DNA from: a virus
Length of the DNA stretch: 23,400 nucleotides
IMG/VR virus record: IMGVR_UViG_3300005735_000219
Coordinates: 1 to 23,400 of that record
Strand: one strand, 5' to 3'
Shown here: positions 1-13,510 of the stretch, in pieces
Layout of the letters: each line of letters starts with the position of its first letter
How positions within the stretch are numbered: the first letter of the stretch is position 1
Position numbers and translations under genes: made by a program
The notes under the pieces: generated by a model
Told to the model about the DNA's origin: nothing
Database searches by the model: none
What the model saw: the letters and a program-made list of their open reading frames with translations, nothing else

Positions 1-92
1 AAAAAGAGAAGATCCACTTTATAGTTTAGTAAGATAAAAGGATTAGCCTATATCCTCAAACATACCTGGCAAATTAAAATTATATAAAAATT
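1..92. other. Left-edge non-coding stretch before queC
   Basis: No gene can be assigned. All three forward frames close within 40 bases (stops at 22-24, 27-29 and 35-37), so a preceding gene could end here, but the frame cannot be chosen. A weak hairpin, AGGAT at 39-43 pairing with ATCCT at 52-56 across an 8-base loop, lies midway. The last 20 bases are almost pure A/T and provide the A-rich initiation region of queC. I looked for a preQ1 riboswitch because of the downstream gene and did not find its conserved pattern. Confidence 0.4.
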
Positions 93-941
93 ATGTTATT
101 TACTGAAGAACAATTAGGTAAAATGAATGCAAAGCATGCTGTAGTATCACTTTCAGGTGGTATGGATTCTACTACTGTATTGCTGAAATGTTTAAAAGAA
201 TTCGAAACTGTAACTGCTTTAAGTTTTGACTATGGTCAAAAACACCGAGTTGAACTTGAGCGTGCTCAATCACTTATTGATTATTTAAATAAGCAATGCA
301 ATGATAATGATTGCTATGGTGGTTGTAGAATTAAATATAGAGTAATCAAACTCGATGGTTTAACAGATTTACTCAATTCTGCTTTAGTAGAAGGTGGAGA
401 TGAGGTTCCAGAAGGACATTATGCTGAAGAAAATATGAAAGCAACTGTTGTTCCTAATCGTAACAAAATCTTTGCTTCTATTACCCAAGCAGTAGCACTT
501 TCCGTTGCTGATAAAACAGAAGAAAACACAGTTATCGCTATGGGAATTCATGCGGGAGACCATGCTATTTACCCAGATTGTAGACAAGAATTTCGTGATT
601 TAGATTTTGAAGCCTTCCGCTCAGGTAATTGGGGTTCTGAACGAGTTATGGTTTATACACCATATTTACACGGTGATAAATTTACTATATTACAAGATGG
701 TGAATATCTAACGGAGTACCTCAAATTGGATTTTAATGATATTTATAGACGTACTAATACAAGTTACAAACCTTACCCAAGTGGTAATAGTGATTATAAA
801 TCAGCATCATCTGTTGAACGTATTGAAGCATTTATTGCTTTAGGTCGCCCAGATCCAGTACAATATGAAGATGAAACAGGAGAAGTTAGTTGGGAAACAG
901 CAGTAAAACACGTAACTAAAGTATTAGCAGAACATGAGTGA
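93..941 (+). CDS. queC: QueC-like 7-cyano-7-deazaguanine (preQ0) synthase lacking the zinc cysteines
   Basis: QueC uses two ATP to convert 7-carboxy-7-deazaguanine, through its amide, to preQ0. The PP-loop SGGMDSTT is at residues 21-28, followed by FDYGQKHR (45-52), VPNRNKIF (120-127) and YPDCRQEF (160-167), all diagnostic of QueC. Length is 282 residues, against about 220-240 usually; part of the excess is an insert with Cys69, Cys74 and Cys78. The C-terminal zinc site, normally four cysteines before an ER-EAF-like segment, reads Ser224, Asp234, Ser237 and Ser240, so every ligand is replaced. The ATG at 93 was chosen for its A/T-rich lead; ATG at 123 (MNAKHAVVS) would match the usual QueC start better and is a fair alternative. 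The gene overlaps the next by 8 bases. Family assignment is firm; whether it completes the preQ0 reaction is open. Confidence 0.92.
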   Translation: MLFTEEQLGKMNAKHAVVSLSGGMDSTTVLLKCLKEFETVTALSFDYGQKHRVELERAQSLIDYLNKQCNDNDCYGGCRIKYRVIKLDGLTDLLNSALVEGGDEVPEGHYAEENMKATVVPNRNKIFASITQAVALSVADKTEENTVIAMGIHAGDHAIYPDCRQEFRDLDFEAFRSGNWGSERVMVYTPYLHGDKFTILQDGEYLTEYLKLDFNDIYRRTNTSYKPYPSGNSDYKSASSVERIEAFIALGRPDPVQYEDETGEVSWETAVKHVTKVLAEHE

Positions 942-1182
942 CGGAAAAACAGAAGCATATAGAGGTACTTATTGGAATAGTAAATCTGATTACAATTGGG
1001 AATATAAAGATACTAAAATTAAAAAACAAGAACTCCCCGATGCTAGAAAACACCAAATTATTTCATTTATTAAATCAGGGGTTCGTATCTTAGGATATGG
1101 ACTCTTGGTTATAAATCTCCCAATAGCTGTTGGTGTTCTTATATTAAGTGAAATAATAGGAATTGTAGAAGAATTAGTATGA
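934..1182 (+). CDS. Small hypothetical membrane-anchored protein
   Basis: I do not recognise this 82-residue protein. The first half is hydrophilic, charged and rich in Tyr/Trp (residues 1-40). Residues about 43-80 are strongly hydrophobic, from about SFIKSGVRILGYG to the end, and could form one long or two short membrane segments with an N-in orientation. It starts inside the last codons of queC (8-base overlap) and its stop overlaps the carbamoyltransferase start by 4 bases (ATGA). It is therefore probably translated by coupling within one operon. No catalytic motif is visible. Confidence 0.7.
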   Translation: MSDGKTEAYRGTYWNSKSDYNWEYKDTKIKKQELPDARKHQIISFIKSGVRILGYGLLVINLPIAVGVLILSEIIGIVEELV

Positions 1183-2777
1183 AAATTTTAGGAATACAAG
1201 GAGGTAGCCATAGTTGTGGTATTGCGGGAATGGATAATGGAAAAATTGTATTTTCTTTCGAAGAAGAACGTTTTAATAGAATTAGAGCATATAAAGATTT
1301 TTATAAAGATTTTTTTAGATATCCTATAGAAAGTTTTAAAAATTTACATAAATTTGATTTTAATTTAGAAGATGTAGATTATATTACTAGCCATTATCAG
1401 TTACACGTAATGAAAGATATGTGGAAATCTATATCTTCTCTCCCATTCCCCGAAGAAAAGTATATCTTAACAAACCACCATGATGCTCATTGTAATTTAG
1501 CTTATTATTGTAGTGGATTTGAAGAAGATACTTTAGTTATTTCTTTAGATGCTAGTGGTGAAACTCATAGTAATAAGGTTTATTTAGGTTCAAATGGAAA
1601 TATGACTTATATTGATGGTATTGATTTATCTCATAAGTCTTTAGGTCATTATTATTCTATGTTAACTGAATTTTTGGGGTTTAAACGTCTTAAAGATGAA
1701 GGAAAAGTTGTAGGTAGATCATCACATGGTTCTTTTAGTCAAAAGTTTTATAATATTTTTAATGATTGTATTAAAGTAGAAAATGGTAAAACCGATAAAG
1801 ATAATGGTAAAATCTTTTTAGGGGGTGTATATGAAGATTTTTATAAATTATTTTTTGAACAAATAGGAAGTAAATTTTATGCTCATTTAAAAGATGATAT
1901 TGCTTATACCGGACAATTAGTATTTGAAGAAAAAATATTACAAATAATTAATCATTACCATAATCTTTATCCTCAAGTTAAAAAAGTTGCATTGGTTGGA
2001 GGTGTTTTTGCTAATGTAAAGTTAAATAAAAGAATTAATGATTTAGAATGGATTGATGAAGTATTTGTAGCCCCTCCAATGGGTGATGAAGGTATTGCTT
2101 TAGGGGCATGTTTAGCAGTTCATAAAAAATTTCATCCTGAATTTAAACCATTTAAATTAGATAATGTATTTTTAGGGACTGAATACTCTGATGGAGAATT
2201 TGAATTTGATGATACTAAATTTAGTAAAAGACCATATACTGAAGAACAATTAGCATATGATTTAAAAGAAGGTAAAGTAGTTGGTTGGTTTCAAGGTAGA
2301 TATGAGCATGGTCCTAGAGCTTTATGCAATAGAAGTATTATCGCTGATCCTAGTGTACCTGGTACTTATAAAAAAGTAAACGATAGATTACAGCGTAATG
2401 ATTTTATGCCTTTTGCTCCTGTTGTTATTGATGAGTATGCAGATAAAGTATTTAATGTAAATAAATCTAGGTACACAGCCGAATTTATGACTATGTTATA
2501 TGATACTAGAAAAGAATGGTATGATAAAATTCCTGCAGTAGTACATCCAATTGATAAAACAGCTAGAATTCAAATAGTAACTGAAAATAGTAATTCTAAA
2601 TTTTATAAACTGATAAATAAATTTAATGATATTACTAGCATTCCTGTGTTAATGAATACAAGTTTTAATGTACATGGTGAACCTATAGTTTGTCGTCCTG
2701 AAGAAGGGTTCGTACATTTAGACAATGGTATTGTTGATGTACTAGTGGTTAATAATTATGTGTATACAAAAAAATAA
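1179..2777 (+). CDS. NodU/CmcH/TobZ-family O-carbamoyltransferase
   Basis: Family members transfer a carbamoyl group from carbamoyl phosphate, by way of carbamoyl-adenylate, to a hydroxyl of a sugar, antibiotic or modified base. The 532-residue protein has both expected lobes. The N-terminal Kae1/HSP70-like lobe has the metal-binding HHDAH at about 100-104, ISLDASGE and GGVFANVKLN. The C-terminal YrdC-like lobe has GWFQGRYEHGPRALCNRSI, RNDFMPFAPVV and MNTSFNVHGEPIVC. Length is near the family norm, so it looks intact. It lies inside the deazaguanine gene cluster with a 4-base overlap upstream. Some phage and virome members of this family have been tied to carbamoylation of 5-hydroxymethylcytosine in DNA. 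That makes a DNA-modification role attractive here, but the acceptor cannot be read from sequence; a glycan or small-molecule acceptor remains possible. Confidence 0.93.
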   Translation: MKILGIQGGSHSCGIAGMDNGKIVFSFEEERFNRIRAYKDFYKDFFRYPIESFKNLHKFDFNLEDVDYITSHYQLHVMKDMWKSISSLPFPEEKYILTNHHDAHCNLAYYCSGFEEDTLVISLDASGETHSNKVYLGSNGNMTYIDGIDLSHKSLGHYYSMLTEFLGFKRLKDEGKVVGRSSHGSFSQKFYNIFNDCIKVENGKTDKDNGKIFLGGVYEDFYKLFFEQIGSKFYAHLKDDIAYTGQLVFEEKILQIINHYHNLYPQVKKVALVGGVFANVKLNKRINDLEWIDEVFVAPPMGDEGIALGACLAVHKKFHPEFKPFKLDNVFLGTEYSDGEFEFDDTKFSKRPYTEEQLAYDLKEGKVVGWFQGRYEHGPRALCNRSIIADPSVPGTYKKVNDRLQRNDFMPFAPVVIDEYADKVFNVNKSRYTAEFMTMLYDTRKEWYDKIPAVVHPIDKTARIQIVTENSNSKFYKLINKFNDITSIPVLMNTSFNVHGEPIVCRPEEGFVHLDNGIVDVLVVNNYVYTKK

Positions 2778-2788
2778 AAATAAATAAT

Positions 2789-3037
2789 ATGAAACAATTG
2801 TGGTATTTTAGTGCTCCTTGGTGTGGGCCGTGTAAAATGTTTGGTCCAACTATGGACAGAGTAGAATCGCAGGGTATACCTGTTAAAAAAGTTAACATTG
2901 ATTATGAACCCGATGCTTCAACCAAATTTGGTATTAGAAGTGTCCCTACCGTTATTTTGGTAGAAAATGAACAAGAAGTATCTCGTTTTGTAGGTGCTAA
3001 ATCTGAACAACAAGTAATAGATTTCTACAATGGGTAA
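2789..3037 (+). CDS. Mini-thioredoxin
   Basis: A thiol-disulfide oxidoreductase of the thioredoxin fold. The active site WCGPCK is at residues 11-16, and the cis-proline loop SVPT has Pro53. At 82 residues it is shorter than bacterial thioredoxin (about 105), mainly through loss of the N-terminal strand and helix, as is common for phage thioredoxin/glutaredoxin proteins. A likely role is supplying electrons to ribonucleotide reductase or another phage enzyme, though no reductase gene is in this window. It follows the carbamoyltransferase after 11 A/T-only bases (AAATAAATAAT) and overlaps queD by 8 bases. Confidence 0.93.
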   Translation: MKQLWYFSAPWCGPCKMFGPTMDRVESQGIPVKKVNIDYEPDASTKFGIRSVPTVILVENEQEVSRFVGAKSEQQVIDFYNG

Positions 3038-3494
3038 ATTCACTAGTACAAAAGTATTTGATGGATTTAGCACAGTATTCCGTCAATGGAGAGCTGAAAC
3101 AACTCATTGTAGGTTTGTTCATGGTTATGGAGTTTCCTTTAAAGTATGGTTTGAAGGTGAGCTCGATGAGAGAAATTGGGTTTGGGACTTTGGAGGTATG
3201 AAACGTGCTAAAGGTCAAATTGATGGTATGTCTCCTAAAGCATGGATGGATTACATGTTTGATCATACAATGATTATTGCTGAAGATGATCCTTGGGTAG
3301 ACGCTTTTAAACAAATGGAAACATCAGGCGTAGCCCAGGTAAGAATTGTACCTGCTACAGGAGCAGAAAAATTTGCTGAATATATTTACAACAAATTAAA
3401 CCCTTTTATTCAAGAGGAAACTGATGGTCGTGTTAGAGTGACTCAAGTTGAATTTAGAGAACACGGAAAAAATAGCGCAATCTATGGTGAATAA
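3030..3494 (+). CDS. queD: QueD-like 6-carboxy-tetrahydropterin synthase
   Basis: QueD converts dihydroneopterin triphosphate, the FolE product, to 6-carboxy-5,6,7,8-tetrahydropterin. This 154-residue protein has the T-fold signature: FRQWRAETTHC (17-27), VHGYG (30-34), WDFGGMK (52-58), FDH (77-79) and VEFREHGKNSA near the C-terminus with Glu144. His26, His31 and Tyr33 stand where canonical QueD has three zinc histidines (the HGH motif reads HGY). Cys27, next to His26, is the probable catalytic cysteine. The FRQW...HGY form occurs in a recognised QueD subfamily, so this is probably subfamily character rather than decay. It starts 8 bases inside the thioredoxin gene and overlaps queE by 11 bases. 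Confidence 0.88.
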   Translation: MGKFTSTKVFDGFSTVFRQWRAETTHCRFVHGYGVSFKVWFEGELDERNWVWDFGGMKRAKGQIDGMSPKAWMDYMFDHTMIIAEDDPWVDAFKQMETSGVAQVRIVPATGAEKFAEYIYNKLNPFIQEETDGRVRVTQVEFREHGKNSAIYGE

Positions 3495-4290
3495 AAAATT
3501 ATGGTATAAAAACGCACCTTTAGGGCGTATTGAAGATTATGACAAGGTATTACCAATCGTTGAAGTCTATCGTTGTGTACAGAGTGAAGGAAGTCGTTTT
3601 GGACGTCCAACCATTGCTGTACGAACCACTGGATGTACTCACCGTTGCTATTTCGGCGAAGGTGGGTGGTGTGATAGCTGGTATACTTCAATCCATCCTG
3701 AAAAAGGTACGTTTACATTTAATGACATTATTAAAATTTATGATGAGAACCCTCATGTTAAAGAAATGATGTTAACAGGTGGTAGTCCAACTATGCACCC
3801 TAAATTAGTAAATGAATTAACACATTTTGCTCATGAAAGAGGAATCCTCATTACTATCGAGACTGAAGGCTCTCATTTCCTTGAAACCGATTACCCGATT
3901 AATCTCCTTTCTATCTCACCTAAGTTTAGTAATAGTGTCCCTGTTGTTGGTGTTGCCACTCCCGGTGGGGGGGTTACGGATGAAAAGATGGTTAAAACGC
4001 ACAATCGTCTTCGCCTTAACACTGAAGCCATTAGAACGAGTATTAATTATCATACTGACTATCACTATAAGCCTGTGTGGGATGGCACTGATGAAGGCCT
4101 CATTGAGATCGAGAACTACAGACAAGAGCTCGGTATTCCAAAAGACAAAACTTTCGTTATGCCTGCCGGAGATACTAGAGAAGAATTAGTAAAAATGTAT
4201 CCTATTGTGTTTGAAATGGTAGCTGAGCATGGTTATAATATGACTGGTAGAGATCACATCATTGCTTACGATACAGAACGAGGAGTATAA
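3484..4290 (+). CDS. queE: QueE-like 7-carboxy-7-deazaguanine synthase (radical SAM)
   Basis: QueE is a radical-SAM enzyme that rearranges 6-carboxytetrahydropterin to 7-carboxy-7-deazaguanine. I place the start at ATG 3484 (268 residues, 11-base overlap with queD). An ATG at 3448 in the same frame would overlap queD by 47 bases and add an atypical 12-residue leader. Substrate-pocket features include VQSEGSRFGRPT (32-43). The cluster cysteines are Cys51, Cys55 and Cys63, spaced CX3CX7C rather than CX3CX2C, with the typical CDSWY following. LTGGSP (97-102) is the GGEP-like SAM motif with Ser for Glu, and LLSISPKFSNS is the QueE-specific SPK segment. A run of seven G at 3967-3973 lies in a GC-richer stretch of the gene. 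Confidence 0.9.
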   Translation: MVNKKLWYKNAPLGRIEDYDKVLPIVEVYRCVQSEGSRFGRPTIAVRTTGCTHRCYFGEGGWCDSWYTSIHPEKGTFTFNDIIKIYDENPHVKEMMLTGGSPTMHPKLVNELTHFAHERGILITIETEGSHFLETDYPINLLSISPKFSNSVPVVGVATPGGGVTDEKMVKTHNRLRLNTEAIRTSINYHTDYHYKPVWDGTDEGLIEIENYRQELGIPKDKTFVMPAGDTREELVKMYPIVFEMVAEHGYNMTGRDHIIAYDTERGV

Positions 4291-4418
4291 TGGATAGAGC
4301 ACTTGAATTACTAGAACAAATTGAAGAAAACGTTTCAGTATGTTGTGCCATTACTATGGAGCCAGATGAAGTTCTAGCTCTTATTGAAGAATTAAGAACA
4401 ATTTTAGAAGAAAAATAA
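4290..4418 (+). CDS. Tiny helical hypothetical protein (42 aa)
   Basis: An ATG at 4290-4292 opens a 42-codon frame ending in TAA at 4416-4418. The start shares one base with the queE stop, and the stop shares one base with the start of the next gene, both as TAATG junctions. This exact fit between neighbours is the main evidence that it is real. The predicted peptide is acidic and leucine/glutamate-rich (ALELLEQIEEN near the start, ALIEELRTILEEK at the end), probably two amphipathic helices, with a Cys-Cys pair between them. Function unknown; a small dimerising or adaptor protein is possible. Confidence 0.65.
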   Translation: MDRALELLEQIEENVSVCCAITMEPDEVLALIEELRTILEEK

Positions 4419-4768
4419 TGTATACTTATAATGCAAAATTAGATAGAGTAGTAGATGGAGATACTGTTGATGCTCTAGTAGATTTAGGATTTGATACTTG
4501 GAAAAAAGTTAGAATTAGAATGGTGGGAATGGATGCTTGGGAATCCAGAACTAGAGATTTAGAAGAAAAGAAAAAGGGATTAGCAGCTAAAGCTCGTTTA
4601 ATTGAAATTCTTGAAGGTAATGATGGTGATTTTATTTTAGTATCTCATGGAGTAGGTAAGTATGGTAGATGTTTAGGAGAAATTTTTGTTAATCCTGGAG
4701 ATGATAGTATTAATAATCTCTTAATTACTGAAGGCCATGCTAAAGAATATTACGGAGGAAAAAGATAA
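4418..4768 (+). CDS. Staphylococcal nuclease-like (thermonuclease) protein
   Basis: A compact SNase/thermonuclease-fold protein of 116 residues that should cleave DNA or RNA with Ca2+. Visible hallmarks are VVDGDTVD (11-18, with metal-site Asp13/Asp15), VRIRMVGMDAWE (31-42) and GKYGRCLGEI (80-89). By spacing, Arg34, Asp39, Glu42 and Arg84 correspond to the catalytic Arg35, Asp40, Glu43 and Arg87 of the Staphylococcus enzyme. The segment INNLLITEGHAKEYYGG is the usual C-terminal signature. No signal peptide is seen, so it acts in the cytoplasm, perhaps in host nucleic-acid degradation. It abuts the following gene with no spacer. Confidence 0.9.
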   Translation: MYTYNAKLDRVVDGDTVDALVDLGFDTWKKVRIRMVGMDAWESRTRDLEEKKKGLAAKARLIEILEGNDGDFILVSHGVGKYGRCLGEIFVNPGDDSINNLLITEGHAKEYYGGKR

Positions 4769-5311
4769 ATGTTTAGTAAATTAGTTATGAATCCATTATT
4801 TACCCCAGAAGAAATTCAGTTTCAAGTAAAATTACTAGCTAAAAAAATTAGTGATAAACATAGAGGAGATGGAACTCCAGTTATTATGATTGGTTTACTT
4901 AACGGAGCATTTATGTTTTATAGCGATTTAGTTAAAGCTATAGATATTGATGTGGAAGTAGATTTTATGCGTATTAAATCGTATATAGCGAAAAATAAAC
5001 AAGGTGATATTCAAATTACTAAAGATTTAGAAACAGCTATTAAAGGTAAACATGTTTATATTGTAGATGATATTTTAGATTCTGGTAATACTATGTCTAA
5101 AGTAATTGAATATTTAGAAATTAAATGGCCTAAAACAATTAATGTTGTTACTCTATTAAAAAGATCAAATACTCCTTTTGATTTAAAAAATTTTAAAGTT
5201 GAAGGTAGTCAATATTTTTCATTTAAATTACAAAATGAATGGGTTGTAGGTTATGGAATGGATAATGATAAAGGTTTTTGCAGAAATTATGACTCTATCT
5301 TTGAGTTGTAA
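4769..5311 (+). CDS. hpt: Hypoxanthine/guanine phosphoribosyltransferase-like protein
   Basis: A type I phosphoribosyltransferase that would join a purine base to PRPP to give IMP or GMP. The PRPP-binding motif IVDDILDSGNT is at 98-108. The N-terminal half has IGLLNGAFMFYSDLV (41-55), where hpt proteins carry the PPi loop, and VDFMRIKSY follows. The C-terminal WVVGYGMDNDKGFCRNYDSI matches the VGYGLD...RN pattern of HPRT. At 180 residues it has normal length. In a deazaguanine cluster one may ask whether it accepts a deazapurine, but the closest match by eye is ordinary hypoxanthine PRT. It begins on the base after the SNase stop. Confidence 0.9.
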   Translation: MFSKLVMNPLFTPEEIQFQVKLLAKKISDKHRGDGTPVIMIGLLNGAFMFYSDLVKAIDIDVEVDFMRIKSYIAKNKQGDIQITKDLETAIKGKHVYIVDDILDSGNTMSKVIEYLEIKWPKTINVVTLLKRSNTPFDLKNFKVEGSQYFSFKLQNEWVVGYGMDNDKGFCRNYDSIFEL

Positions 5312-5317
5312 AATTTC

Positions 5318-5349
5318 TTTCTTATATTACATTAAATAAAAAGTTATAA
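5318..5349 (+). promoter_or_regulatory. Shared upstream element B, copy 1 (before folE)
   Basis: The short gap before folE contains TTTCTTATATTA, then CAT, then an A-rich tract ending in AAAAAGTTATA directly before ATG. A near-identical arrangement precedes the gene at 11291. Most of this genome lacks intergenic sequence, so conservation across two gaps suggests a phage promoter or translation-initiation element. It does not match the TAnnTTTG element known for Bacteroidota sigma factors well. The function is inferred. Confidence 0.45.
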
Positions 5350-6045
5350 ATGGAAAATAAACGTAGAAAAGTACACGAAGAATTAGAAGTTGTACAAACC
5401 GGTTTTGCTAATGGTGTAGCACCTGGTTTCCCTTTTACTGATAAGGAAAAATTAAAAATGATTGATGAAGCAGAGAAAGCTTATGGTAAGTTTTTAGATG
5501 CTTTAAAATGTGATTGGCGTAATGATCCTAATTCAATGGAAACACCAAGACGTGTAGCTAAAGCATATGTAAATGATTTATGGGCTGGTAGATATACAGC
5601 AATGTCCCCTATTACTTCATTTCCTTCAGATGGATATGATGGAGTAATTATTGAACGTAATATTCCACTTACATCTATGTGTTCCCATCACCATCAAACA
5701 ATTGGAGGAGTAGTTCATATTGGTTACATTGCAGGTGAAGAAGGTCAAGTAATTGGTTTATCAAAACTAAATAGAATTGTAGAATTATTTGGTCGCAGAG
5801 GTGCTATCCAAGAACAATTAACATCAGCAATTCACAATGCAGTAGATAAAATTACTGAAGGTAATAAAGGGGTTATTGTAACTATTGTAGGTACCCACAA
5901 TTGTGTAAGTTGTAGAGGTGTTAAACATCAAGGTGCTGCTATGGTTACTACTAAAGCATCAGGTGCATTTAGAGATGATACAAATCAAGCAAGAAAGGAA
6001 TTTTTTGATAGTTTAAAAATTAATAACGGAGGACACAACATTTAA
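5350..6045 (+). CDS. folE: GTP cyclohydrolase I
   Basis: FolE converts GTP to 7,8-dihydroneopterin triphosphate, the first step of both folate and 7-deazaguanine synthesis, and so feeds QueD. The 231-residue protein has PRRVAKAY (67-74), the zinc site SMCSHHHQTIGG (Cys111, His114 and later Cys185), IGLSKLNRIVELFGRR (135-150) and HNCVSCRGVKHQGAAMVT (183-200). The usual CEHH is CSHH here. The N-terminal 40 residues are extra and polar compared with the minimal enzyme. It is one of the few genes with a real gap in front and carries candidate element B there, so it may head its own transcript. Confidence 0.95.
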   Translation: MENKRRKVHEELEVVQTGFANGVAPGFPFTDKEKLKMIDEAEKAYGKFLDALKCDWRNDPNSMETPRRVAKAYVNDLWAGRYTAMSPITSFPSDGYDGVIIERNIPLTSMCSHHHQTIGGVVHIGYIAGEEGQVIGLSKLNRIVELFGRRGAIQEQLTSAIHNAVDKITEGNKGVIVTIVGTHNCVSCRGVKHQGAAMVTTKASGAFRDDTNQARKEFFDSLKINNGGHNI

Positions 6046-6047
6046 TT

Positions 6048-6707
6048 ATGACACAATTTGAACAAGAAATAGAATTAATCTTACTAAACAGTTTAGGTAC
6101 TCTTAATTCACTAAGAGATAGAGACCAGTTAAGTATGACACCTGAAAGTGAATGGGCTCAACATGTTGCTAAACAAATAGCAGGTCAATTTAAAGGGAAT
6201 TATGTCCCATTTGTAAGCGAAGTAGAAACATTTAACGCCACAATGGGCAAACCAAACAATTATGAACCAGTTATCCCAGAAGAAAACGAGTGGATGTTTG
6301 TTTACAACTTCATCCTTGAGGAACTTGAAGAGTACAAAGAAGCATGTGAAACAGGAAACATTGTTGAAGTACTTGATGCTCTATGTGACATTGCCTACGT
6401 CTCGATTGGTAACGGAGCTATGCTACATGGTCTTAAAGATAAGTTATGGGATGCCTATCAAGAAGTACAAGCGTCCAATATGTCAAAGGCTTGCGTTAAC
6501 GAAGAAGAAGCACAAGCGACTGTTGAACTACGAAGTAAAGAACAGGGCGAAGCGTGTCACTATGAAAAGGTTGGAGACTATTATATTGTCTATAGAAGCC
6601 GTGACAAAAAAGTAATGAAAAATATTAATTACTTTAGACCAGATCTTACTCAATTCTTTGATAATGATGAATTATCTAAATTTAGAAACGAAACCTTAGG
6701 TATTTAA
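6048..6707 (+). CDS. MazG-like NTP pyrophosphohydrolase domain protein
   Basis: An all-alpha NTP pyrophosphatase-like protein (MazG/phosphoribosyl-ATP pyrophosphohydrolase group), expected to hydrolyse (d)NTPs or a related nucleotide to the monophosphate and PPi. The N-terminal cue is VETFNATMG (59-67). The metal-binding helices carry EELEEYKEA (91-99) and EVLDALCDIAYV (107-118, Asp110 and Asp114). A C-terminal tail from about 165 (YEKVGDYYIVYRSRDKK) is a short beta-rich extension. Length is 219 residues. Bases 6220-6590 use noticeably more C/G at codon third positions than the flanks. It lies two bases after folE and overlaps the polymerase start by one base. Confidence 0.82.
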   Translation: MTQFEQEIELILLNSLGTLNSLRDRDQLSMTPESEWAQHVAKQIAGQFKGNYVPFVSEVETFNATMGKPNNYEPVIPEENEWMFVYNFILEELEEYKEACETGNIVEVLDALCDIAYVSIGNGAMLHGLKDKLWDAYQEVQASNMSKACVNEEEAQATVELRSKEQGEACHYEKVGDYYIVYRSRDKKVMKNINYFRPDLTQFFDNDELSKFRNETLGI

Positions 6708-9385
6708 TGTATCAAGCAATCTATTTCGATAGAAACGATTACAAGTATTATTTAAGGGATGATAAGTTAGGATGGAAAAATGAATTCACTTATCAAGGGG
6801 ATCGTTATGTAAAAGATCCTGAAGGTGAATTAAAAACTATTTTTGGGGAAAGTGTTTCTAAAGCCTCAAAATTTAACTTTAAAGACCCCAATTTTTTTGA
6901 AAATGATATTGATGCTAATACTAGAGTACTAGTAGACCAATATTATAAATCTGATGATACTCCTTCTTATCATAATATAGTTTATTTTGATATTGAGTGT
7001 GAAATCGTAGGAGCATTAACCCCAGAAAATATTAAGGATCCTAAAGGTAAGATTACTTCTGTCGCTTTATATTGTAATAATAAATATTATTGTTTAATAT
7101 TAGACGAATCAAAACGTATCCAACCAGTTTCTGGGGATAAAGAAATCATTCGTTATAATACTGAACAAGAATTATTAAATGGATTTTTGGATTTATGGAT
7201 TAAATTAGACCCTACTATTATAACAGGATGGAATAGTGCTTATTTTGATGTTCCTTACCTTTATTATAGAATTGAAAAAATATTAGGGAAAGAAGTAGCA
7301 ACTTATCTATCTCCAATTAATAAAGTTCAATCAACAACTCGTAGAGATAGAAAAACAGGAAATTTTATGGCTTCTGTAACATTAGGAGGTATTAATCATT
7401 TAGATTATATGCTCCTATTTCAGAAGTTTATTACTAAACAAGAACCTTCTTATAGATTAGATGATATTGGATTAAAATATGCTAAATTATCTAAAATTGA
7501 ATATGAAGGTTCACTTGATAGATTATTTGAAACTGATATAGATAAATTTATTGATTATAACCTTCGAGATGTTGAAATTATCGTTGAACTAGAAAATTCA
7601 CTTAAATTTATTGAATTAACAGTTAATATTTGTCATTTATGTCATGTTCCTTATGATACAATATATTATTCGACTGTATTAAATGATGGAGCTATTTTAA
7701 CATATTTGAAACGTAAAGGAATCGTTTCACCAAATAAACCCACTACATATAATCCTAATCTTAACATTAGTGCTTTAATGAAAGGTATAAACGCTAACCA
7801 AGAGTTAACATACCAAGAAAAGCAAGATAAGATCGAGGCCCTTAAGAAAACTCAAGAATATGCTGGTGGCTATCTAAAAGACCCAGTACCTGGGTTATAT
7901 GAGTGGGTTATTGATTTGGATTTTACTTCATTATATCCTTCAATTATTCGTTCACTTAATATTGGTGTTGAAACTTTAGTAGGACGTATTGTAAATAGTA
8001 ATAAATATGACAATCAATGGTCATTAAAGGAACTTAAAGAAATGGATCCTGAAGAAACTGTTTCTATTGAAAAATTAAAAAAAAATTATACAGTATCTAG
8101 AATTGATAATGTTCCTGTAGGTAAAATAGTTCAACAAATAGAACGAGATGATTTATTAATTTCAGCACCTGGTGTTTTATTTAGAAAAGATAAATCAAGT
8201 GTAGTTTGTGAAATATTAGCTGATTGGTTTGCTAAACGTGTTGAATATAAAAATAAAATGAAAAAAGCTTTTAAATCAGGTGATGCTGTTAAAGGTGAAT
8301 TTTATAATAAACGTCAACATGCTTATAAAATTAAATTAAATGATGTTTATGGTGTGTTTGCTCAAAATGGTTGGAGATACACTGATGGACATAAAATGAT
8401 ATCTAAAGCAATTACACTTACTGGTCAACGATTAACCCAAGATTCAATTAAGTTTGTAAATAATTGGTTAAATGAACAATTAGGAACAGATAAAGATTAT
8501 ATTGTAACATCGGATACAGATTCATTATTTGCCCAAGTAAAAGACTTAATTTTACATAGAAATCCTAATTTGATTGATGCTGATAGAGAGGTTATTGTAG
8601 AAGAAACACTTAAAGTAGCCCAAGAAATTCAAGAGTTAGCAAATAAGAATTTACATAAAATGGCTCAAGAATTATTCAACATTAAATACCCAGATGAAGA
8701 ACATTATTTTGAGTTAAAACAAGAGGTTGTACTTGAAAGGGGTTACTTTTCAGGTAAACGTAGATACGCTCAATTTATTGTAAATAAAGAAGGAGTACCA
8801 ACAGAAGAATTAGATATGAAAGGACTTGATCTAATGAAATCAAATTTTCCTCCTTTATTTAAGAAGTTTGGTGAGCATATTCTTACTGAAATTATGTTTG
8901 GTAAGGCAAAACCTGAAATTGATAAACAAGTACTTGATTTTAGAGAATCACTTAGAACTGTTGAATGGAAACAAATCCTTAAACCAACAGGACTAAAACG
9001 AATGAGAGAATATGCTGGTAAAAAACCTGGCGCTGGTGAGATATTTACTCAATTAGAGAAAAAATGTCCAATTAATACAAAAGCAGCACTTCGTTACAAT
9101 GATATTCTTAAATTTAAAGGATTAGATGATAAATATCCCATCTTTCAGGTTGGAGATAAAATGTATATTGCGTATCTTAAGGAAAACCCATACAGAATAG
9201 ATGTAATTGGTTTTAATGGGTATAATGACCCCCCTGAGATTCTAGAATTTATTGAAAAATATATTGATAGAGATGGATTATTCGAATCAGTTATTAAAAA
9301 TAAACTCGAAAACGTATATCAAGACATTGGTTGGGGTATGCCTGTATTTAATAGAAAAGTAAATAAGTTTTTTAAATTCACATGA
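6707..9385 (+). CDS. 43: Family B replicative DNA polymerase, T4 gp43-like
   Basis: The phage replicative polymerase with 3'-5' proofreading, 892 residues, close to T4 gp43 (898). Exonuclease motifs are YFDIECE (93-99, Asp95/Glu97), TGWNSAYFDVP (173-183, Asp181) and YNLRDVE (284-290, Asp288). Polymerase motif A is DFTSLYPS from Asp405, motif B is KIKLNDVYG (541-549) and motif C is SDTDS (602-606). KRRYAQF follows as the KKRY element. All catalytic residues appear intact. The C-terminus ends FNRKVNKFFKFT, a hydrophobic/aromatic tail suited to clamp binding as in T4. The stop overlaps the clamp gene by 4 bases (ATGA). Confidence 0.98.
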   Translation: MYQAIYFDRNDYKYYLRDDKLGWKNEFTYQGDRYVKDPEGELKTIFGESVSKASKFNFKDPNFFENDIDANTRVLVDQYYKSDDTPSYHNIVYFDIECEIVGALTPENIKDPKGKITSVALYCNNKYYCLILDESKRIQPVSGDKEIIRYNTEQELLNGFLDLWIKLDPTIITGWNSAYFDVPYLYYRIEKILGKEVATYLSPINKVQSTTRRDRKTGNFMASVTLGGINHLDYMLLFQKFITKQEPSYRLDDIGLKYAKLSKIEYEGSLDRLFETDIDKFIDYNLRDVEIIVELENSLKFIELTVNICHLCHVPYDTIYYSTVLNDGAILTYLKRKGIVSPNKPTTYNPNLNISALMKGINANQELTYQEKQDKIEALKKTQEYAGGYLKDPVPGLYEWVIDLDFTSLYPSIIRSLNIGVETLVGRIVNSNKYDNQWSLKELKEMDPEETVSIEKLKKNYTVSRIDNVPVGKIVQQIERDDLLISAPGVLFRKDKSSVVCEILADWFAKRVEYKNKMKKAFKSGDAVKGEFYNKRQHAYKIKLNDVYGVFAQNGWRYTDGHKMISKAITLTGQRLTQDSIKFVNNWLNEQLGTDKDYIVTSDTDSLFAQVKDLILHRNPNLIDADREVIVEETLKVAQEIQELANKNLHKMAQELFNIKYPDEEHYFELKQEVVLERGYFSGKRRYAQFIVNKEGVPTEELDMKGLDLMKSNFPPLFKKFGEHILTEIMFGKAKPEIDKQVLDFRESLRTVEWKQILKPTGLKRMREYAGKKPGAGEIFTQLEKKCPINTKAALRYNDILKFKGLDDKYPIFQVGDKMYIAYLKENPYRIDVIGFNGYNDPPEILEFIEKYIDRDGLFESVIKNKLENVYQDIGWGMPVFNRKVNKFFKFT

Positions 9386-10790: not shown

Positions 10791-11222
10791 ATGAGTACAT
10801 TATTTTACGAGAGAAATCTCTCACCATTCGATTTATTATTTAAAGACTTTTTTAGGTCTGATTTAAACTTCCAACCGGCTACTGAAGCCAAACATTCCCA
10901 CCCCGTAGATATTTATGAAACAGAAGAAGGACTTCATTTTGAAGTTGCTTGTACTGGTCTTACAAAAGAAGATATTGAGTTAAATATCGAAGGGGATATT
11001 CTTAAAATTTCTTATAGTAAAGATGCTGAAGCAGCTGATGCTGAAGCTAAAGGACGTAACTACATTCATAGGGGTGTAGCAAAACGTTCATTTAATTTAG
11101 GTTATAAAATTGCTTCTAAATTTAGCTTAGCAAACGCTACAGCTGAAATGGAAAATGGATTACTAACAATTGAAATCCCATTTGCTAAAGAAGCTAAACC
11201 TAAAGTTTTAAAAATTAAGTAA
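10791..11222 (+). CDS. hsp20: Hsp20 small heat-shock protein
   Basis: An ATP-independent holdase of 143 residues with an alpha-crystallin domain at about 37-132: PVDIYETEEGLHFEVACTG, LTKEDIELNIEGDILKISY, then RSFNLGYKI and AEMENGLLTIEIPFA. The GLLTIEIP strand is the family hallmark. The C-terminal KVLKIK supplies the IxI-like tail that mediates oligomerisation. The N-terminus, MSTLFYERNLSPFDLLFKDFF, is the usual aromatic arm. It probably works with the downstream GroES/GroEL pair to keep phage proteins folding. It is unusual for this window in having long gaps on both sides (91 and 68 bases), both carrying repeat arms and candidate regulatory elements. Confidence 0.95.
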   Translation: MSTLFYERNLSPFDLLFKDFFRSDLNFQPATEAKHSHPVDIYETEEGLHFEVACTGLTKEDIELNIEGDILKISYSKDAEAADAEAKGRNYIHRGVAKRSFNLGYKIASKFSLANATAEMENGLLTIEIPFAKEAKPKVLKIK

Positions 11223-11228
11223 CCCGAA

Positions 11229-11250
11229 TGCGCCCTAGGGTTGGTTTTGT
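11229..11250 (-). repeat. Inverted repeat flanking hsp20, right arm
   Basis: Plus strand reads TGCGCCCTAGGG then TTGGTTTTGT, beginning 7 bases after the hsp20 stop. It contains the perfect 8-base palindrome CCCTAGGG at 11233-11240. On the minus strand it matches the left arm at 10716-10736 in 19 of 22 columns. Confidence 0.75.
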
Positions 11251-11258
11251 AAATTAAA

Positions 11259-11290
11259 TTTCGTATATTAACATCAAATAAAAAAGTTAT
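11259..11290 (+). promoter_or_regulatory. Shared upstream element B, copy 2 (before the groESL operon)
   Basis: TTTCGTATATTA, then ACAT, then a CAAATAAAAAAGTTAT tract directly abutting the ATG at 11291. It matches the element before folE (5318-5349), differing by one substitution in the core TTTC-TATATTA and a few single-base changes beyond. It would drive the gene pair leading into groES and groEL. Promoter or initiation role inferred. Confidence 0.45.
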
Positions 11291-11581
11291 ATGACAACAA
11301 TTAAAGATCCAGTACTAGAACCATATCACATTACTCGTGATGGTCATGGTTTTTCAGTAGTAGAAACAGTTACCCCTCAAGCTAAATACCTTGAAAAAGG
11401 TAGTGAAGGTAAAGATTATGAAAAAGCAATTTGTTATCCTTCTACATTAGGAGGTTGCTTGAAAAAAATAGCAGAATACAAGTTAAATACAGGTCAAGAA
11501 TATCAAAGTATTAGAGAATACTTAGATGAGTTTAATTCAGTTTATAGTAAAATCCAAGAAACATTTAATTTAGAAGTATGA
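11291..11581 (+). CDS. Hypothetical protein upstream of groES
   Basis: A 96-residue soluble protein I cannot assign to a named family. It opens with MTTIKDPVLEPYHITRDGHG, continues through FSVVETVTP and a YLEKGSEGKDYEKAICYPS stretch, and ends in two predicted helices (CLKKIAEYKL and SIREYLDEFNSVYSKIQETF). Similar short proteins with a DPVLE...Y opening followed by a GxxY...Y segment are common in phages, without known function. The stop overlaps the groES start by 4 bases, so it is probably co-translated with the chaperonin genes; a link to chaperonin function is only suggested by this. Confidence 0.75.
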   Translation: MTTIKDPVLEPYHITRDGHGFSVVETVTPQAKYLEKGSEGKDYEKAICYPSTLGGCLKKIAEYKLNTGQEYQSIREYLDEFNSVYSKIQETFNLEV

Positions 11582-11889
11582 GTTTAGAAGCTTTATTTAA
11601 TGCCGTAGTTGTAAAACCGGTAGAATTTGAGGAACAGATGTATGGTAACATCGTAGTTCCTGACATGGGAAAAGAAAAGAACCAAACAGCTGAAGTTGTT
11701 GCTGTAGGACCAGGCCATTATTCTATTACAGGAACATTCATTAAAACCGTATCCAAAATTGGAGATACAGTAGTATTACCTACAATGGGTTTTACTAAAT
11801 TTGAATGGGATGGTGTAGAATATTTAATTGGTAAAGAAAATGATATTTTAGCAAAAATTAGTAAAAAAGAAGAAACAACAAATGAGTAA
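11578..11889 (+). CDS. groES: GroES co-chaperonin (Cpn10)
   Basis: The 103-residue lid subunit of the chaperonin. It follows the Cpn10 order: an N-terminal strand VVVKPVEFE, the mobile loop that docks on GroEL (about 19-34, EQMYGNIVVPDMGKEK), then AEVVAVGPGH, IGDTVVLP and a C-terminal ENDILAKI strand. The roof-loop region is slightly long (GHYSITGTFIKTVSKIG). It is much closer to bacterial GroES than to the diverged T4 gp31 type. It overlaps groEL by 8 bases, so both proteins should be made from one message, as in bacterial groESL operons. Confidence 0.93.
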   Translation: MSLEALFNAVVVKPVEFEEQMYGNIVVPDMGKEKNQTAEVVAVGPGHYSITGTFIKTVSKIGDTVVLPTMGFTKFEWDGVEYLIGKENDILAKISKKEETTNE

Positions 11890-13510
11890 AGTTATTGAAT
11901 TTGGACCAGAAGGTCGTAAAAAATTAGTTAATGGTATTGATAAATTAGCAAATGCCGTTGTATCAACATTAGGTCCTAATGGACGAAATGTAGTTATTTC
12001 AAATGGAGGGGCACCTCAATCTACTAAAGATGGAGTAACAGTAGCAAAATCAATTACCTTAAGTGATAATGTAGAAAGTGTAGGTGCTGAAATGGTAAAA
12101 CAAGCAGCAATTAAAACAGCAGAAAATGCTGGTGATGGTACTACCACTTCTACTTTACTAGCTCGTGAAATGGTACAGGCAGGTTTGTCTCACCTAAATA
12201 ATGGTGCTAATGCTGTAGAAATTAAACGTGGTATTGACACAGCTGTACAGCAAGTAATTGAAACTCTCCGTGCTAATTCAGAAGATATTTCATCTGAAGA
12301 ACAACTACAACAAGTAGCTACTATCTCAGCTAATAATGATCCGGAAGTAGGTAAATTAATTGCTACAGCTATGTCTAAAGTAGGTCGTGAGGGTGTAGTA
12401 ACAATAGAAGAATCAAAATCAGGAGATACTTATCTTGAAACAGTAGAAGGTATGCAATTTGATAGAGGTTATAAGTCACATTATTTTGTAACTAATAATA
12501 ATACAATGACTTGTAATCTTGAAGATACACTTATCTTAATTGCTGATAAGAAAATCACTCAAGTTAAAGAATTACTTCCTGTACTAGAAGCTGTTTCAAA
12601 TCAAAATAAATCACTTTTGATTGTTGCCGAAGATATTGATAGTGAAGCATTAGCTACTCTTATTGTAAATAAAATGAGAGGTACTATTAAAGTAGCAGCT
12701 GTTAAAGCTCCTGATTTTGGTGATCGTAGAAAATTAATCCTAGACGATATGGCTATCCTAACTGGTGGCCAAGTATTCAGTACTGATAAAGGTATGAAGC
12801 TTGAAAAGTTTGAATGGGACTGGTTTGGTGAAGCGCGTCTTGTAACAGTAACAAAAGATGAAACAACAATTGTTGACGGACGAGGAGGAGCTGATGCAAT
12901 ACAAACACGTATTGAGGAAATCCAACAACAGATTGAAAAATCAACCTCATCATTCGAAAAAGAAAAACTTCAAGAAAGATTGGCAAAATTCACAGGAGGA
13001 GTAGCTATTGTTCATGTTGGTGGACATACTGAAACTGAAATGCGTGAGAAAAAAGACCGTGTAGATGATGCTTTACAAGCAACTCAAGCCGCTCTTGAAG
13101 AAGGTATTATACCTGGTGGAGGTGCTGCTTTATTGTATGCTCGTGAAACAATTGAAAACAAAGATAGTATTGGTTCTCAAATTGTATACAAAGCATGTGG
13201 TAAACCTTTTGAACAAATCCTTACTAATGCAGGATACAGTACAACAGAAGCTCAGATGATTGGTAAATACCAATTAGTAGATTCAGGTAATGATATTTGG
13301 GCAGGTTATAACCTTAAAACGGAAGAGGTTGTAAACATGAAAGAAGCAGGTATTATTGATCCTTCTAAAGTAACTCGTACAGCACTTGAAAGTGCAGCAT
13401 CGGTAGCAAGTACAGTATTACTCACAGAATGTGTAGTAGTAGATGATCCAGATAATGAAAAAGACGCTATGGACCCAATGGCTGGAATGGGAATGGGTGG
13501 AATGTTTTAA
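11882..13510 (+). CDS. groEL: GroEL chaperonin (Cpn60), full length
   Basis: A 542-residue chaperonin subunit (E. coli GroEL 548) with all three domains. The equatorial ATP site has LGPNGRNVVIS (30-40) and GDGTTTSTLLA (84-94). The apical domain has RGYKSHYFV, LLPVLEAV, IAEDIDSEALATLIVN and RGTIKVAAVKAPDFGDRRK, and KEKLQERLAKFTGGVA leads back to the second equatorial part with PGGGAALL. The C-terminus ends DPMAGMGMGGMF, a Gly-Met tail. The highly conserved LGPKGRN reads LGPNGRN and APGFGDRRK reads APDFGDRRK. It appears intact and active. With groES it could form a complete phage-specific folding chamber, possibly for a capsid or replication protein that host GroEL handles poorly. Confidence 0.98.
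   Translation: MSKVIEFGPEGRKKLVNGIDKLANAVVSTLGPNGRNVVISNGGAPQSTKDGVTVAKSITLSDNVESVGAEMVKQAAIKTAENAGDGTTTSTLLAREMVQAGLSHLNNGANAVEIKRGIDTAVQQVIETLRANSEDISSEEQLQQVATISANNDPEVGKLIATAMSKVGREGVVTIEESKSGDTYLETVEGMQFDRGYKSHYFVTNNNTMTCNLEDTLILIADKKITQVKELLPVLEAVSNQNKSLLIVAEDIDSEALATLIVNKMRGTIKVAAVKAPDFGDRRKLILDDMAILTGGQVFSTDKGMKLEKFEWDWFGEARLVTVTKDETTIVDGRGGADAIQTRIEEIQQQIEKSTSSFEKEKLQERLAKFTGGVAIVHVGGHTETEMREKKDRVDDALQATQAALEEGIIPGGGAALLYARETIENKDSIGSQIVYKACGKPFEQILTNAGYSTTEAQMIGKYQLVDSGNDIWAGYNLKTEEVVNMKEAGIIDPSKVTRTALESAASVASTVLLTECVVVDDPDNEKDAMDPMAGMGMGGMF

Follow-up and report, generated by a model that had tools for sequence, protein, structure and literature searches.

The viral record IMGVR_UViG_3300005735_000219, analyzed here at its complete length of 23,400 bases (the window), carries folE, queD, queE, and queC, and the enzyme that would use their product, preQ0, is most likely encoded just beyond its left end, 92 bases before queC. 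The window is a fragment, probably a piece of a large tailed phage with a Bacteroidota host. In the explanation that we propose, FolE, QueD, QueE, and QueC would make preQ0 from GTP, and a DpdA-type DNA-guanine transglycosylase would replace guanines in the phage DNA with preQ0 or a close derivative. The modified base should shield the phage DNA from host nucleases. A pseudoknot in the queC leader (positions 39 to 72) is predicted to fold in the ribosome-binding region, where it probably controls queC translation, and it may sense a 7-deazaguanine. A linked hypoxanthine-guanine phosphoribosyltransferase (HGPRT) may salvage the guanine freed by base exchange. Taken as a whole, with dPreQ0 as the expected base, this explanation appears highly probable to us. 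The features on which it draws are the following.

2-37, plus strand: 3′ end of a truncated open reading frame (ORF) of the 71-amino-acid (aa) type, cut by the contig edge; last 11 residues KREDPLYSLVR, then stop (frame-2 translation)
39-72, plus strand: queC leader pseudoknot, H-type, 34 nucleotides (nt) (cmsearch 46.6 bits, E 8.8e-10; covariation)
93-941, plus strand: queC, 7-cyano-7-deazaguanine synthase (Pfam QueC 5.5e-38; PHROG QueC-like 2.4e-41)
3030-3494, plus strand: queD, 6-carboxytetrahydropterin synthase type (Pfam PTPS 8e-14; PHROG QueD-like 7.7e-42)
3448-4290, plus strand: queE, radical SAM 7-carboxy-7-deazaguanine synthase (PHROG QueE-like 2.1e-47; TIGR03365 2.7e-15); the ATG at 3484 is the likelier start
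4769-5311, plus strand: HGPRT (TIGR01203 8.9e-43; PDB HPRTs 5.9e-31)
5350-6045, plus strand: folE, GTP cyclohydrolase I (Pfam 2.6e-42)
6048-6707, plus strand: MazG-like nucleoside triphosphate pyrophosphohydrolase, the conserved cluster end (Pfam PRA-PH 5.7e-8)
6707-9385, plus strand: family B DNA polymerase (polB), marker of the lineage with dpdA upstream of queC (Pfam 6.2e-32; synteny)

Position of dpdA in related phages

ORFs and family matches placed all four preQ0 genes within positions 93 to 6045, interleaved with a carbamoyltransferase, a thioredoxin, an SNase, and a phosphoribosyltransferase, just as an earlier note made from the sequence had described. That note had also reported tgt, dpdA, and queF to be missing. 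Indeed, neither the Pfam model of tRNA-guanine transglycosylases (TGT; PF01702) nor DpdA and QueF profiles built from phage relatives gave a match in the 23.4-kb window. Because the record is this short and stops so close to queC, the absence of dpdA from it says little about the genome.

Among relatives, 22 IMG/VR contigs were found via the polymerase and 80 more via QueC. A DpdA homologue was present in 10 of the 22 polymerase-found records, although the Pfam TGT model detected none of the 22, these 10 included, so that a search with this model is uninformative here. Two cluster layouts were observed. In the polA type, represented by Flavobacterium phage immuto, dpdA follows mazG and precedes a formyltransferase gene and queF. 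The window is of the polB type. Once duplicates had been removed, 31 distinct loci of this type reached 2.7 kb or more upstream of queC, and in 31/31 the dpdA gene is the direct upstream neighbor of queC, at a median gap of 357 bases. A dpdA gene between mazG and polB was found in 0 of 37 polB-type loci, duplicates again removed. Whether a family A or a family B DNA polymerase stands at the cluster end tracks both the presence or absence of queF and the position of dpdA (L001 and L098-L127 versus the window-type loci).

The left edge of the window retains a trace of this arrangement. The translation of positions 2 to 37 is identical to the C terminus of a gene that lies between dpdA and queC in the closest relative (L002:2123-2338), and a homologue of this spacer gene occupies the same place in another close one (L024:9732-9947). 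A 24-base stretch of the window leader recurs exactly in L024 and L031, both of which have dpdA upstream of queC. Since synteny in the relatives puts dpdA directly upstream of queC, we place the gene just past the left edge of the record, and the missing user enzyme would be an effect of the contig edge. The invariable position in the relatives and the spacer-gene remnant thus lend support to the earlier proposal that a DpdA-like transglycosylase lies elsewhere in this genome.

An explanation without a transglycosylase has to be weighed at this point, namely, that the preQ0 genes raise the queuosine content of host tRNA and thereby help translation. The lack of tgt, dpdA, and queF in the window would fit it, as would the 48 phages that have preQ0 genes but no recognized DpdA, for some of which a host-queuosine role has been suggested (Hutinet et al. 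2019, PMC6884629). However, dpdA is found upstream of queC in every relative of the lineage whose record extends that far, the window breaks off right before the place of dpdA while keeping the end of the neighboring gene, and the Pfam TGT model misses this DpdA type altogether. We regard such a role as very unlikely; the boosting of host queuosine, which the earlier note had named as an alternative, is not needed.

Transglycosylase fold and the expected base

The DpdA proteins of the relatives comprise about 262 aa, and 29 residues, including D53, D84, and D206, are invariant in 39 sequences. By motif likeness only, D84 would correspond to the general base of TGT and D206 to its nucleophile. 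When the DpdA alignment was used as a profile against PDB sequences, only weak matches were returned, with DpdA 7ui4 at E 0.17; the TGT identity was settled by a fold search. The AlphaFold model of a relative's DpdA (predicted local distance difference test score, 96) retrieved tRNA-guanine transglycosylases as its best Foldseek matches, with DpdA 7ui4 in the top 14, and VIA structural alignment gave Z scores of 17.2 to archaeosine TGT 1iq8 and 17.1 to DpdA 7ui4. As modeled, the gene upstream of queC in the relatives has a TGT fold. Cui et al. 2023 are said to have named a DpdA3 that permits complete replacement of G, and the present type may presumably belong to that DpdA3 subfamily.

The nearest homologues of this DpdA in isolates were found in immuto (37%) and in Campylobacter CP220-like phages, where the protein is unannotated (34%); that of Cellulophaga phage phiST is distant (20%). 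CPT_0056 of Campylobacter phage CP220 (L155:7995-8771) carries a hypothetical-protein annotation and is homologous to DpdA (34% identity, E 2e-35). Campylobacter phages have been counted among the phages with preQ0 genes but without DpdA, though they are rich in 2′-deoxy-7-amido-7-deazaguanosine (dADG) (Hutinet et al. 2019, PMC6884629).

Immuto (MW353175) is also the closest point of comparison for the system: it shares the order queC...queD-queE-(PRT)-folE-mazG, where PRT is the phosphoribosyltransferase gene, as well as a DpdA homologue and the same queC leader pseudoknot, and its MazG-like gene is 77% identical at the DNA level to that of the window. Both DpdA and QueF are annotated in immuto, where dpdA stands after mazG together with the formyltransferase gene and queF, followed by a family A polymerase gene. 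In the window lineage, in contrast, dpdA precedes queC, QueF is absent, and the polymerase is of family B. This lineage resembles the group 2 phages (for example, CAjan and Rosebush) in its FolE, QueD, QueE, and QueC, in an expected DpdA, and in the lack of an amidotransferase and of QueF (Hutinet et al. 2019, PMC6884629); it differs from them by the length of its DpdA (about 262 aa) and by escaping the Pfam TGT model.

Real QueF matches were obtained in 3 of the 40 records searched, all of the polA lineage, and in none of the loci with polB. Six records gave weak QueF matches below the cutoff, in small open frames; the single one whose coordinates were checked (G008:1884-2039) lies on folE, whose product is a fold relative, and was rejected. 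Because QueF is lacking in the polB lineage, we expect dPreQ0, or a derivative made by an unrecognized enzyme, rather than dPreQ1. The earlier suggestion that the phage DNA carries preQ0 or a derivative gains support from the relatives to this extent. Two points weigh against the explanation: dpdA was not seen on this genome, as the record ends before its expected place, and most viral records are fragments, so the absence of QueF is no proof.

The gene set would be of a known kind, the phage systems composed of DpdA and preQ0 genes, with the missing enzyme probably explained by the contig edge. Modification of DNA with 7-deazaguanines is a known phage defense, and with this lineage it reaches uncultured phages, whose DpdA type goes unnoticed in standard domain searches.

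A covarying pseudoknot in the queC leader

Alignment of the leaders revealed a common element that ends about 22 bases before the queC start. In the window, P1 pairs positions 39-43 with 52-56 (AGGAU:AUCCU), P2 pairs 46-48 with 68-70 (GCC:GGC), and L3 spans 57-67. The general fold comprises a P1 of 4 to 5 pairs and a P2 formed by GCC of the loop with a downstream GGC. The pattern GCCTAT..CTGGCAA is found a single time in each of 50 loci from both lineages, directly upstream of queC in those checked. The covariance model gave one strong match in each of 22 records and one in immuto; in the window, 39-72 is the sole strong match.

We gathered 52 distinct elements from 113 loci by patterns in which the inner U-A of P1 and most letters of P2 were fixed and the three P1 pairs that covary could take any letters. 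The inner four pairs of P1 are always paired in these elements, as GCGU:ACGC, ACGU:ACGU, GGAU:AUCC, GUGU:ACAC, or GGGU:ACCC, and P2 occurs as GCC:GGC, ACC:GGU, GCUAC:GUAGC, and GGCCC or GACCC with GGGUC. In the 48 standard elements, 99.5% of the cells are paired; slid structures reach no more than 42%. Changes on both sides affect 27 cells, compared to 4.3 in shuffles. Mapped on the QueC tree, the P1 type has undergone 17 or more changes, with pairing preserved. Two unpaired stretches, CUAU and AUACCU, are conserved as well. A DNA-level dyad, such as a promoter or an operator, is disfavored because the arms change together while staying complementary, the element occurs once per record, and its spacing to the start codon is fixed. 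The case is tempered by the many weak branches of the QueC tree and by the low variation of P2, in which two of the three standard pairs are constant; the covariation support is due mostly to P1 and to a small number of variant P2 types. Furthermore, the leader is missing or unrecognized in about one-quarter to one-third of the queC loci and is therefore not essential to the pathway. In one branch (L088:3613-4449, L076:9150-9983), the 3′ end of the dpdA coding sequence extends into the pseudoknot, which encodes the extra DpdA tail RPYPEHTGS.

Specificity was assessed by scanning public collections with a sequence pattern that did not include P1. Of the 79 matches listed for viral contigs, 74 showed the full set of four P1 pairs, with queC as the first recognized gene downstream; another 3 were paired and situated at a contig end. 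Of the 46 matches in bacterial genomes, 44 had neither P1 pairing nor queC; the 2 paired ones both preceded queC-queD-queE. Four contigs of one Melainabacteria assembly (L157, L174, L197, and L199) carry the same sequence within 60 bases of a contig end, perhaps a repeat at which the assembly broke.

In 48 of the 52 distinct cases, the element lies 18 to 25 nt from the first in-frame queC AUG. This fixed spacing and the location in the ribosome-binding region point to control of translation, and the pseudoknot thus probably controls translation of queC. The leader RNA is the new part of the system: it is compact, strongly covarying, in these phages found nowhere but before queC, and apparently previously undescribed. 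Rfam searches of the window, the window leader, and the L027 leader at E values up to 5-10 gave no relevant match.

PreQ1 class I (preQ1-I) riboswitches are likewise small H-type pseudoknots in queC leaders at the ribosome-binding region, and their specificity base, immediately preceding the 3′ strand of P1, is a cytosine, in the form UC or AC (PMC11625349). The phage leader has U at this position in 52/52 distinct elements and a U-A closing pair of P1, where preQ1-I has a G, again in 52/52; the collecting patterns fixed both the base and the pair, so exceptions could be missed. It also differs by its very short L2. Lacking both the cytosine and the guanine closing pair, the leader was rejected as a member of preQ1-I.

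We tentatively propose, at somewhat less than even odds, that the leader represents a new phage riboswitch class, which would respond to preQ0 or another 7-deazaguanine by turning queC translation off, thereby metering the base supply, while HGPRT recycles the displaced guanine and pulls the exchange toward completion. If the leader does bind preQ0 or preQ1, a metabolite switch would be built into a phage DNA modification pathway. The pseudoknot could instead be an autogenous protein-binding site, such as that in the leader of T4 gene 32. Its H-type form near a start codon, its restriction to a position upstream of one gene, and the lack of a cytosine at the preQ1-I specificity position would all suit such a site. 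The conserved unpaired CUAU and AUACCU, however, have the look of a ligand pocket, and bacterial queC leaders as a rule sense pathway products (PMC11625349). These points are not decisive; a protein site seems less likely than not to us.

HGPRT, carbamoyltransferase, and neighboring genes

The window HGPRT is an ordinary-looking HPRT with a conserved phosphoribosyl pyrophosphate (PRPP) loop and VGYGxD motif. It has the fold family, PRPP loop, and purine-binding motif in common with known HPRTs; what sets the phage enzyme apart is its linkage, as all 52 distinct phage HGPRT homologues found, on viral contigs, adjoin preQ0 genes. The gene is present in 25 of 41 complete polB-type clusters and in 5 of 7 polA-type clusters. 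A search in isolated phages gave distant matches only, in unannotated or bacterial-looking records, and our literature search returned no paper tying a phosphoribosyltransferase to phage 7-deazaguanine systems. We hypothesize that HGPRT salvages the guanine released by DpdA, which would fit the linkage; the link suggests a way in which a base exchange enzyme might be pushed forward and its waste product put back to use. The linkage, together with the MazG-type hydrolase and polymerase genes that come next in the cluster, could also be taken to mean that the 7-deazaguanine enters DNA before replication, HGPRT making a preQ0 nucleotide that the polymerase uses without DpdA. Against this stand its occurrence in only 25/41 complete polB-lineage clusters, all of which hold dpdA, and its likeness to an ordinary guanine/hypoxanthine enzyme; we consider incorporation by this route very improbable. 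The remaining genes of the cluster are listed below.

934-1182, plus strand: small ORF (82 aa), hydrophobic in its C-terminal part; homologues at the corresponding position in L002-L004, L016, and L019
1179-2777, plus strand: NodU/TobZ-type O-carbamoyltransferase (Pfam 1.6e-58; PDB relatives of the TobZ/GdmN/novobiocin type)
2789-3037, plus strand: thioredoxin (Pfam 1.5e-17)
4418-4768, plus strand: SNase-type endonuclease (PHROG endonuclease 1.3e-34)

Family searches (Pfam, PHROG, and TIGR) with the 82-aa ORF gave no match. The carbamoyltransferase is probably a passenger gene. Its nearest homologues (69 to 71%) lie downstream of polB in L115 and L074, and the carbamoyltransferases that several relatives carry stand in differing places and are only 25 to 35% alike across groups. 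A part in the pathway was rejected as unproven, place and type changing between relatives. Participation in DNA modification, for example by formation of 5-carbamoyloxymethylcytosine as in MetaGPA, is conceivable in that 5-hydroxymethylcytosine carbamoyltransferases of this superfamily, which have NodU/TobZ-type domains in common with the window enzyme, exist in phages (PMC8670742), and in that carbamoyltransferases recur among the relatives. The differing places and low likeness across groups speak against it, as do the location of the closest homologues and the lack in the window of a dCMP hydroxymethylase (a thymidylate synthase homologue). Related loci hold ThyX or ThyA genes. We judge such participation in DNA modification improbable. 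The nearby glycosyltransferases suggest a glycan substrate, and a role in glycan decoration is conceivable. Near the cluster, ThyX and ThyA swap for each other among relatives (L002:371-1009, L024, L035, L106, and others).

Several motifs of the preQ0 enzymes depart from the usual forms. The iron-sulfur motif of QueE (window 3448-4290 and relatives) is CX3CX7C in 78 of 99 distinct homologues, the usual form being CX3CX2C, and the zinc motif CX2CX2C of bacterial QueC occurs in 0 of 93 homologues (window 93-941 and relatives). QueD (window 3030-3494 and relatives) has HGY in 83 of 83 homologues; because this replaces the HGH of bacterial QueD, its metal site may be different. Past the polymerase, the window encodes chaperonins, a clamp loader, a PD-(D/E)XK nuclease, and the glycosyltransferases. 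The genes for Hsp20, GroES, and GroEL are consecutive at positions 10791-13510.

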